A stretch of DNA of 64,000 bases from Glycomyces sambucus. Its GTDB lineage: Bacteria; Actinomycetota; Actinomycetes; Mycobacteriales; Micromonosporaceae. Positions within the stretch are counted from its first letter, which is position 1. Every line of letters starts with the position of its first letter. Below the pieces are notes generated by a model. It saw only the letters and a program-made list of their open reading frames with translations. It ran no database searches and was not told the origin of the DNA. The stretch is from NCBI RefSeq assembly GCF_900102815.1, contig NZ_FNGF01000006.1:186001-250000 (forward strand). The letters run 5' to 3'. Positions 1,169-15,522 of the stretch are shown here, piece after piece. The translations under genes were made by a program, and so were the position numbers.

Positions 1169-1209
1169 TTGAAAGTTCTCAATGTTCCTATATTTTGGGA
1201 GCGCTTACA
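1169..1209 (+). promoter_or_regulatory. Candidate promoter and CebR-like operator of the second LPMO gene
   Basis: TTGAAA (1169-1174), a 16-bp spacer and TATTTT (1191-1196) form a possible promoter. TGGGAGCGCTTACA at 1196-1209 matches 12 of 14 positions of the cellobiose-responsive CebR operator TGGGAGCGCTCCCA known from Streptomyces cellulase genes. The operator would cover the start site and touch the ATG at 1209, giving an almost leaderless mRNA. A short inverted repeat, CATTGA (1167-1172) with TCAATG (1179-1184), lies within the promoter. Confidence 0.5.
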
Positions 1210-13912: not shown

Positions 13913-14599
13913 GTGACCACGGACCTCGTCGACACCACCGAGATGTACCTGCGCACGATCCTCGAACTCGAGGAGGAGGGCGTCCCGGCGCTGCGCGCCC
14001 GGATCGCCGAGCGGCTCGAGCAGAGCGGTCCGACGGTCTCGCAGACCGTGGGCCGGATGCAGCGCCACGGCCTGCTGAACGTCAAGAGCGACCGCCACCT
14101 CGAACTCACCGAGGAGGGCCGCCGCCAGGCGGTGGCCGTGATGCGCAAGCACCGGCTCGCCGAGCGCCTGCTGGTCGACGTCATCGGGATGTCCTACACC
14201 GAGGCGCACGACGAGGCGTGCAAGTGGGAGCACGTCATGAGCGACACCGTCGAGAAGCGCGTGTACGAGCTGCTCAAGCACCCCACCCGGTCGCCGTACG
14301 GCAACACCATCCCCGGCCTGTCGGAGCTCGACGCGAACGCGGCCCCCGCGTCGCGCGAGGCCGACGAGCGCCCCATGAGCGTGGTCTCCCCCGGCGCGAA
14401 GGTGCGCGTGACGCGCCTGTGCGAGTCGGCCCAGACCCACCCGGACCTGCTGGCCTCGCTGCACGAGGCGGGCGTGGACCCGGGCGCCGAGGTGGTCATC
14501 GACCGCCAGGAGGGCGAGGTCGCGGTGACCTCGGGCGGGCGGTCGCTGCGGCTGTCGGTCGACGACGCCGCGAAGATCTTCGCCGTTCCTGTCGTTTAG
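13913..14599 (+). CDS. ideR: Iron-dependent repressor, DtxR/IdeR family
   Basis: 228-residue Fe(II)-activated repressor of siderophore and iron-uptake genes. GTG start. The N-terminal winged helix is LEEEGVPALRARIAERLEQSGPTVSQTVGRMQRHGLL, and the dimer/metal domain is HRLAERLLVDVIGMSYTEAHDEACKWEHVMSD, which holds the His, Glu and Cys ligands of both metal sites. KHPTRSPYGNTIPG and a C-terminal SH3-like domain follow. I could not find a clear IdeR box nearby. Placed after sigB as in mycobacteria. Confidence 0.95.
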   Translation: MTTDLVDTTEMYLRTILELEEEGVPALRARIAERLEQSGPTVSQTVGRMQRHGLLNVKSDRHLELTEEGRRQAVAVMRKHRLAERLLVDVIGMSYTEAHDEACKWEHVMSDTVEKRVYELLKHPTRSPYGNTIPGLSELDANAAPASREADERPMSVVSPGAKVRVTRLCESAQTHPDLLASLHEAGVDPGAEVVIDRQEGEVAVTSGGRSLRLSVDDAAKIFAVPVV

Positions 14600-14666
14600 T
14601 CCGAATCACTTGCACTGCAAGCCTTTTCAACAGGACCATTGTGCTTTCAAGGCAGGCGCCTGACTC

Positions 14667-14722
14667 TTGACCACCGGACTACCGGGGAGTAGGCTGGCCA
14701 AAGCGTTGGAAACGGTTTCAAT
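14667..14722 (+). promoter_or_regulatory. Promoter with LacI-type operator at the predicted start site
   Basis: TTGACC (14667-14672), a 17-bp spacer and TAGGCT (14690-14695) predict a start near 14702. TTGGAAACGGTTTCAA at 14707-14722 has arms GAAAC/GTTTC, a typical LacI/GalR-family operator, placed where a repressor would block initiation. No protein gene follows on this strand. Confidence 0.5.
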
Positions 14723-14840
14723 CGCGCGGCAGGTCGACTCTCGGAGCCGACCGGGCCGAAACGCCGCGAACCGCACCGCGCAGCGAACTGCACTCCGCAC
14801 CTGAGCACCCTCCCCGCACCCCCGGCGGGGAGGGTGCTCG
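14702..14840 (+). ncRNA. Candidate small RNA
   Basis: The predicted transcript runs from the promoter at 14667-14695 to a strong terminator (14803-14839), about 138 nt. It has no ATG start and no usable reading frame. An internal hairpin pairs GGTCG with CGACC, and CTC with GAG, around 14731-14751. The alternative is that this is only a long ideR 3' trailer with chance promoter matches. Confidence 0.35.
14803..14839 (+). terminator. Strong hairpin terminator
   Basis: A perfect 15-bp stem (14803-14817 with 14825-14839) and 7-nt loop. It would end the candidate small RNA and any ideR read-through. Confidence 0.75.
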
Positions 14841-14850
14841 CGTGCGGGCG

Positions 14851-14885
14851 CGAACGGCCGCCGGAACTGGTCCGGCGGCCGTTCG
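14851..14885 (-). terminator. Hairpin terminator of the lipoprotein operon
   Basis: A perfect 15-bp stem (14851-14865 with 14871-14885) and 5-nt loop, 22 bp beyond the stop of the minus-strand lipoprotein gene. Confidence 0.75.
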
Positions 14886-14907
14886 CATTCGTCGTCCGGT
14901 GCCGCGG

Positions 14908-15522
14908 CTACCCGGCCGCTTCGGCGTGGGCCGCCGCGATGCCGGCGGCGATCTCGGTGAAGCCCGCGACCAGGGCCTCGACGGCGGCAGGGTCGGAGTC
15001 CACGGGCGTGGTGTAGCGCATCTCGAAGATGGTGCCGCCGTCGTACCAGCCCATCTCCAGGGCCGGGCCGGCGCCGGTGTCCTCGGTGTGGACGATCCAG
15101 TACGCGGCCTCGCCGAGGCCGTCGACGGCCTCGGTGTCGTCGGACAGCTCCTCCTCGTACACCTCGACCGTGGCGTCGGTGCCGATGATGAAGACCGTCA
15201 GGTCCGGGTAGGCGGCCTCGCCGGTCTGCACGGCGCAGGTGAGCTGCGCGGGGGCCTCCTCGCCCTCCTCGGCGCCGGGACCGCCCGAGGCGAAGCGGAA
15301 GTCCTCGCCGGTGGTCGAGTTCAGCAGCGCGGAGTCGATGAACGGGCACGCGCCCGCGGCGTCGGCGAGGTCGAGCTCCACCGGCGCGGAGTCCTGCTCG
15401 GAGGCGGACCCCTCGTTGGCGGCCGTGTCGATCGGTTCACCCCCGGCCGGGTCGGCGTCGTCACCGCACGCGCCGAGCAGGAGCAGGAGCGCCGCCGGGG
15501 CGGCGATCAGGAGTCGCTTCAC
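14908..15522 (-). CDS. Secreted lipoprotein of unknown function
   Basis: 204 residues. A lipoprotein signal (MKRLLIAAPAALLLLLGACG) with the lipobox LGAC gives a lipidated Cys at about position 19. A low-complexity acidic linker (EPIDTAANEGSASEQDSAPV) precedes a domain with two Cys (ACPFIDSALL, LTCAVQTGEA) that could form a disulphide. It resembles DUF3558/DUF2020-type actinobacterial lipoproteins, but I do not assign it firmly. Its start overlaps the sulfurtransferase stop by 4 bp (ATGA), so the two are co-translated. Confidence 0.8.
   Translation of the reverse strand: MKRLLIAAPAALLLLLGACGDDADPAGGEPIDTAANEGSASEQDSAPVELDLADAAGACPFIDSALLNSTTGEDFRFASGGPGAEEGEEAPAQLTCAVQTGEAAYPDLTVFIIGTDATVEVYEEELSDDTEAVDGLGEAAYWIVHTEDTGAGPALEMGWYDGGTIFEMRYTTPVDSDPAAVEALVAGFTEIAAGIAAAHAEAAG

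Follow-up and report, generated by a model that had tools for sequence, protein, structure and literature searches.

A conserved, predicted LacI-type-controlled short non-coding gene in Glycomyces, tied to a sugar-acid enzyme gene still present in relatives

Does the 308-bp gap between ideR and the convergent lipoprotein gene of Glycomyces sambucus (positions 14600-14907) contain a gene of its own, and if so, where does it come from? The gap lies in a window of 64 kb, by which we mean the whole stretch of DNA analyzed here, and an earlier note, made from this one sequence, had read it as the site of a candidate LacI-controlled small RNA. We found that the gap houses a short locus, and comparison between genomes argues that this is a real, conserved short non-coding gene with a putative LacI-type control site. 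It is tied to a sugar-acid enzyme gene still present at the same spot in relatives, and this tie is new beyond the single-sequence reading. In its fuller form, our explanation is that the locus would be a ∼139-nt non-coding sRNA gene, repressed by a LacI-type protein, acting through a pairing linker and derived from a sugar-acid gene, a combination we hold to be fairly probable. Features of the locus and its neighbors are collected in Table 1.

Table 1. Coordinates of the short locus and its neighbors in the window
Feature	Position	Strand	Remarks
ideR (DtxR-family iron repressor), upstream neighbor	13913..14599	+	NF053665, PF02742, PF01325
Promoter	14667..14695	+	−35 TTGACC at 14667-14672, 17-nt spacer, −10 TAGGCT at 14690-14695
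Predicted transcription start	14701..14702	+	From distance to −10 box
Predicted LacI-family operator TTGGAAACGGTTTCAA	14706..14721	.	Palindrome; LacI-type palindromes at equivalent place in relatives
Variable middle	14724..14782	+	GGAAACG-type segment in several relatives could pair, as RNA, with operator right half
Linker GCGAACTGCACTCCGCACCT	14783..14802	+	High conservation in last 12 nt; candidate seed, its core being CUCC (anti-Shine-Dalgarno)
15-bp hairpin, loop ACCCCCG	14803..14839	+	Putative intrinsic terminator
Second perfect 16-bp hairpin	14850..14886	.	Computed in sequence
Lipoprotein-like gene, convergent neighbor	14908..15522	-	N-terminus suggests lipoprotein

The elements described from the window were located as claimed: the promoter TTGACC-N17-TAGGCT at 14667-14695, a palindrome near the predicted start (14706-14721) that is of LacI type here and in relatives, a + strand free of ATG from 14701 to 14839, and a perfect 15-bp stem at 14803-14839 (GAGCACCCTCCCCGC/GCGGGGAGGGTGCTC, enclosing a 7-nt loop). 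The promoter had also been called good. It is conserved in all 16 genomes with the short locus (hereafter, short forms), but against the E. coli consensus it had 8 of 12 matches by manual count; an E. coli-tuned promoter scan of 14000-15500 returned 0 sites, and the −10 box is poor. The hairpin had been taken for a terminator, and it is indeed a conserved 15-bp structure, but the window has no U run behind the stem. A terminator scan of 14000-15500 yielded 0 sites, as the stem is not followed by a T run. Among the 16 short-form genomes, only G005 had such a run (TTTTT) directly behind the stem, and downstream sequence extended the lower stem by at least 6 pairs in only 6. The second hairpin (14850-14886) probably terminates the convergent lipoprotein gene. 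The promoter spacer also contains, at 14679-14692 and reaching into the −10 box, a CTACCGGGGAGTAG-like inverted repeat that is seen again in many short forms and is possibly a second regulator site. As for the neighbors, the ideR product scored 278.6 bits against NF053665, under the cutoff of 290, and exceeded the cutoffs of PF02742 and PF01325. The lipoprotein-like product had zero Pfam or NCBIfam matches, and a homologue of its gene adjoins ideR in all 21 other Glycomyces genomes.

The gap was searched in 61 genomes including its own, with ideR located in 60; the Glycomyces set comprised 22 genomes, that of the window (G000) included. Of these 22, 16 had a short locus in the interval from ideR to the convergent lipoprotein gene. 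All share a layout of TTGACC-N17-TAnnnT, a LacI-type palindrome at the predicted start, a middle of 30 to 59 nt, a 20-nt linker and, last, a 15-bp hairpin whose loop is C-rich; promoter spacing was 17 in 16/16, and the predicted RNA measured 110 to 139 nt. The promoter was located by a pattern requiring TTGACC and TAnnnT, which matched in all 16, so no genome was dropped. Conservation in close relatives had been proposed as a test of the small-RNA reading, and promoter, operator, and hairpin were in place in these 16 of 22 genomes; a LacI-family-controlled short transcript is therefore well supported by comparison. The reading thus held for the locus, which is non-coding and conserved, while the transcript itself is a prediction. 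The remaining six Glycomyces genomes carried an intact gene (G013 and G015), a gene remnant (G001 and G020), a worn hairpin (G021; 26.7 bits with the covariance model), or nothing (G003). Since G003 is without all of these parts and G021 has only the worn hairpin, the control parts are not kept everywhere.

In a collection of 84,980 species, from which records of the window's own genome were perhaps excluded, the 3' motif was found in exact form once each in 16 records, all of them Glycomyces. A covariance search in related genomes, also suggested earlier, matched 64 of 300 family genomes at E 0.01. It recovered 21 of the 22 Glycomyces, but the matches in 43 of the 278 others were nearly all to the hairpin part only; weak full-length matches (20.8 to 27.2 bits) were seen in G094, G113, G122, and G310. 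In genus g4 of the family, 32 genomes each had a single match to a terminator-like hairpin, mostly at model positions 85-123. Directly behind the hairpin, G005 (L016) carried a putative VapBC-like antitoxin/PIN toxin pair, and G015 (L049), from a lineage separate from G005, the start of a similar antitoxin gene. The intergenic spot behind the hairpin is probably a site of recurrent insertion or loss.

The two genomes with an intact gene suggest an origin for the locus. In G013 and G015, a mandelate racemase/galactonate dehydratase-like (MR/MLE) gene lies between the promoter-operator region and the same linker and hairpin, and its promoter reads TTGACC-N17-TATGGT, again with a LacI-type palindrome. 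The two enolase-superfamily proteins are 93% identical over 383 aa. The G013 protein (384 aa) matched PF02746 and PF13378, and its nearest NCBIfam models were those of gluconate/galactonate and galactonate dehydratase; since it scored below their cutoffs (PRK14017, 278.6 bits with a cutoff of 311; NF040790, 297 with a cutoff of 750), no substrate was assigned. A member of the galactonate dehydratase-like MR/MLE family thus occupies the slot of the locus in G013 and G015, and the window's genome had no match to the enzyme gene at E 1e-60. At this threshold, 5 of the 22 genomes matched (G013, G015, and three at 38 to 39% identity), with no orthologue elsewhere in the genus. Viral contigs held no such gene in a search sensitive to close relatives only. 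The 3' untranslated region (3'UTR) of the G013 gene matched the linker and hairpin of all 16 short forms (E 2e-21 to 3e-13), the alignment beginning behind the stop codon in nearly all of them. G001 and G020 have shortened gene remnants with promoter, operator, and hairpin still there, so the short forms are not alone in keeping the control parts when no working gene is left.

Two trees bear on the order of events. With IQ-TREE and four neighboring proteins, the 16 short forms made up one clade (91/98), with G003 and G021 as sister to it (94/92, joint node 85/97). The gene and remnant lineages were basal, at a fork left open, and the program warned of the length of the outgroup branches. FastTree placed G021 beside the outgroups (0.677) and G003 among the gene lineages (0.856). 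Support at the tree base for a gene-first order is thus moderate, and the two methods disagree on the placement of G003 and G021. The opposite order, in which the sRNA came first and a mandelate racemase-like gene was captured between operator and 3' part in one branch, is the main alternative and would alter the origin of the locus only. The pattern can be accounted for by one insertion roughly as well as by one deletion, homology between short forms and gene was detected only from about the stop codon onward, and the outgroups G033, G034, and G025 have neither gene nor hairpin behind ideR. We nevertheless consider it unlikely, as sugar-acid dehydratase-like genes usually come with a LacI-type operator ahead of them, and as the gene and remnant lineages branch at the Glycomyces base in the IQ-TREE result, its fork being open. 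We prefer a gene-first history with loss in the ancestor of the short forms. As a tentative and more detailed scenario, a LacI-controlled sugar-acid dehydratase gene with a working 3'UTR RNA may have lost its coding part, with promoter, operator, and 3'UTR surviving as a sugar-responsive sRNA in 16 Glycomyces species and relatives frozen at the stages of intact gene, shrunken remnant, bare hairpin, and empty site.

Rates of change distinguish the parts of the locus. Among 15 of the 16 short forms (G010 was left out), mean pairwise identity was 0.36 upstream, 0.81 in the promoter, 0.83 in the operator, 0.41 in the middle, 0.82 in the linker, 0.95 in the hairpin, and 0.335 downstream, compared to 0.74 at four-fold sites of ideR. 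Gaps lower the segment identities but do not enter the four-fold value, which makes an ungapped parsimony comparison over 16 genomes the fairer test. In that comparison, four-fold sites underwent 2.03 (ideR, 97 sites) and 2.04 (sigma gene, 166 sites) changes per site. The −35 hexamer had 0 changes per site (MWU, P = 0.0004 versus four-fold sites), the −10 hexamer 0.5 (P = 0.006), the last 12 nt of the linker, a core chosen after viewing the alignment, 0.67 (P = 0.0009), the two hairpin arms 0.4 and 0.4 (P = 2e-5 each), and the loop 0.14 (P = 0.0004). Not significantly slower than four-fold sites were the spacer (2.65; P = 0.77), the region behind the −10 box (1.67), the operator as a whole (1.5; P = 0.098), and the whole 20-nt linker (1.85; P = 0.084). 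These values weigh on the idea of a functionless relic, in which the lost enzyme gene has left its promoter, operator, and terminator behind, still transcribed into an idle RNA. In 16 species of a single clade, hexamers, linker core, hairpin, and loop changed no more than a third as often as four-fold sites, while middle and flanks are hardly alignable. This makes a relic rather improbable in our judgment, even though the intact gene of G013 and G015 and the remnants of G001 and G020 are bordered by equivalent parts, and a decay series reaches as far as G021 and G003.

At the operator, a LacI-type palindrome with central CG is present at the promoter, which we took as the mark of a LacI/GalR-controlled promoter. 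With up to 3 mismatches allowed, the 16-bp operator had a single match in the 64-kb window (shuffle mean, 0.03), and TTGSAAACGNTTNCAA occurs once in the whole 5.6-Mb genome; being near-unique, the site suggests a local rather than a global regulator. The LacI/cre consensus is TGNAANCGNTNNCA, and it matched two sites in the window, at 14707 and 1196 (shuffle mean, 0.08), which were counted as 3 matches since a palindrome is picked up on either strand. The second of these sites is TGTAAGCGCTCCCA (1196-1209, minus strand). The operator took the form GGAAACGGTTTC in five genomes, the window's own among them, GCAAACGTTTCC in ten (with altered flanks in G002, G005, and G014), GAAAACGCTTGC in G010, and GAAACCGCTTGC or GAAAACGCTTTC in gene-bearing or remnant relatives. 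Its sequence thus shifts between clades, yet a LacI-type palindrome persists, which would fit coevolution of site and repressor. The window's genome had 43 LacI-type helix-turn-helix (HTH) matches, all candidate cognate repressors, and no LacI gene was found near the locus in 26 neighborhoods of 9 to 16 kb (tblastn with one LacI protein as query). A one-mismatch copy of the operator, TAGGAAACGGTTTCAA, lies directly before an aquaporin-like gene (L112, 1501-2239; G000:C7:230686), and G011 has the same copy. A regulon drawn from operator copies was rejected, as this site is complete only in G000 and G011 of 10 orthologues found; the full copy was absent from the other 8, with a partial one in G019.

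Conceivably, the locus acts at the level of DNA, with the operator as a decoy or regulatory site and the hairpin as a terminator or insulator between ideR and its neighbor, the RNA being unimportant. The near-unique operator would suit this, the hairpin would also block read-through from ideR, and the copy before the aquaporin-like gene in the window's genome and G011 means that the site may serve a small regulon. We regard a DNA-level device as quite improbable, since it leaves the conserved −35 and −10 hexamers, the linker core, and the loop unexplained and since the aquaporin copy is partial or absent in most orthologues.

We then compared the predicted RNA folds. All 15 hairpin pairs were unbroken in the 16 sequences, with 3 pairs changed on both sides, and the RNAalifold consensus consisted of the hairpin alone. 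The full RNA of the window was more stable than shuffles (z = −3.70), which the hairpin can explain, and its 5' part was no better than shuffles (z = −0.28). In most relatives, pairing was visible between the right half of the operator and a downstream GAAAC-type segment. The duplex reached a P value of about 0.05 or lower in 6 of 16 genomes (G002, G005, G007, G010, G012, and G014) and in no genome of the window's clade, which numbers five (z = −0.16 and P = 0.395 for the window's own); in G008, it was worse than shuffles (z = 1.65). Tested against every partner from the other clade, a genome's own partner segment won in G010 and in 9 of the 10 genomes of the second clade, and in 0 of 5 in the window's clade. 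A 5' domain fold is therefore only suggestive, being backed in some relatives but not in the window's clade. The last 12 nt of the linker were unpaired in the consensus fold, and the minimum-energy fold of the window placed part of them in a weak 3-bp helix. Rfam gave 0 matches at gathering score in the 64-kb window, and a known RNA family was rejected on this result. A small protein or leader peptide starting from TTG or GTG beside the predicted start seems scarcely credible: the frame spans 8 to 43 codons over the 16 short forms, and it has at least 25 codons in 12, open to the hairpin end in 7 of these, but such open frames are common in G+C-rich DNA, the frame stops after 8, 8, 11, and 9 codons in G019, G006, G007, and G014, so that no peptide is shared and a conserved small ORF was rejected, and the middle varies in length out of frame.

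We return to our preferred reading, a LacI-controlled sRNA gene left by a sugar-acid gene. A LacI-family repressor at 14706-14721, directly on the start site, would hold the gene off, and a sugar or sugar acid, as suggested by the class of operator, would lift the repression. Transcription would then proceed from 14701 and yield an RNA of ∼139 nt made up of a 5' part (operator and variable stem-loop), the conserved linker core CUCCGCACC, and a strong hairpin that may stop transcription. Most likely, the CUCCGCACC linker, perhaps together with the C-rich loop, would pair with ribosome-binding sites of target mRNAs. As to history, a LacI-controlled sugar-acid dehydratase-like gene, still intact in G013 and G015, most likely lost its coding part by deletion, and the promoter, operator, and 3'UTR that stayed would have come under selection as an RNA. 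A search for the complement of the linker (11-mer) in 5 genomes gave 16 matches, 5 of which were the locus itself, compared to 15 for a reversed-pattern control. The 11 non-self matches had one recurring place, the junction of a sensor kinase and a response regulator, which we take to be the pair kdpD-kdpE (exact in 2 of the 5 genomes). At the start of the kdpE-like gene, the complement was exact in G000 and G011, and had one mismatch in G008, G019, and G006; a further 10 short forms had a match, but none at this position. Since the non-self matches do not exceed the control and the site falls in the coding sequence of the first gene, the sensor kinase, a kdpE-like target is a lead only. In the comparisons made here, nothing beyond adjacency to ideR linked the locus to iron or IdeR.

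CcpA is a protein of the LacI/GalR family. As described for Staphylococcus aureus, the short trans-acting sRNA RsaI is repressed by CcpA in response to glucose and represses its targets through base pairing, either to Shine-Dalgarno sequences or to a 3'UTR (PMC9266662). A sugar-responsive sRNA beside an iron regulator had been expected to be new, but the kind, an sRNA under a LacI-family regulator, is known from RsaI. The Glycomyces candidate resembles RsaI as an sRNA under a LacI/GalR-family repressor, here predicted from the operator. It differs in that RsaI is under a global regulator, whereas the near-unique operator in Glycomyces suggests a local one, and in belonging to another phylum, with the window free of any Rfam match.

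The origin of new bacterial sRNA genes has mostly been argued from single cases, and an origin by exaptation has reportedly been proposed already (Jose, Gardner and Barquist 2019). Bacterial 3'UTRs as a source of sRNAs are discussed in a review (PMC7821165). The locus is akin to sRNAs from 3'UTRs or decayed genes in that linker and hairpin form, in G013 and G015, the 3'UTR of a protein gene; in contrast, the Glycomyces short forms kept the control region, too. We know of no case in which a single genus shows an intact gene alongside a shrinking one, a naked RNA, and an empty site, and none with all such stages was among the matches listed in our literature search. Ms1 and 6C are likewise actinobacterial non-coding RNAs, and 6C RNA has C-rich loops. 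Different from these, no Rfam family reached gathering score in the Glycomyces window. Where the Ms1 paper touches on Glycomyces, it names the genus only in passing (PMC9130861). No literature on this locus was found among the matches listed, which were of open-license papers only and so are weak evidence of absence.

Taken together, candidate stages of the birth of an sRNA coexist within one genus at a single locus, whose transcriptional control seems to have come down from a catabolic gene. Should the RNA prove real, we would know how it is regulated before knowing its targets, and the step from the 3'UTR of an mRNA to a free sRNA would be testable by comparing gene-bearing with short-form species. 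It would also add an actinobacterial sRNA under a sugar-type LacI-family site.
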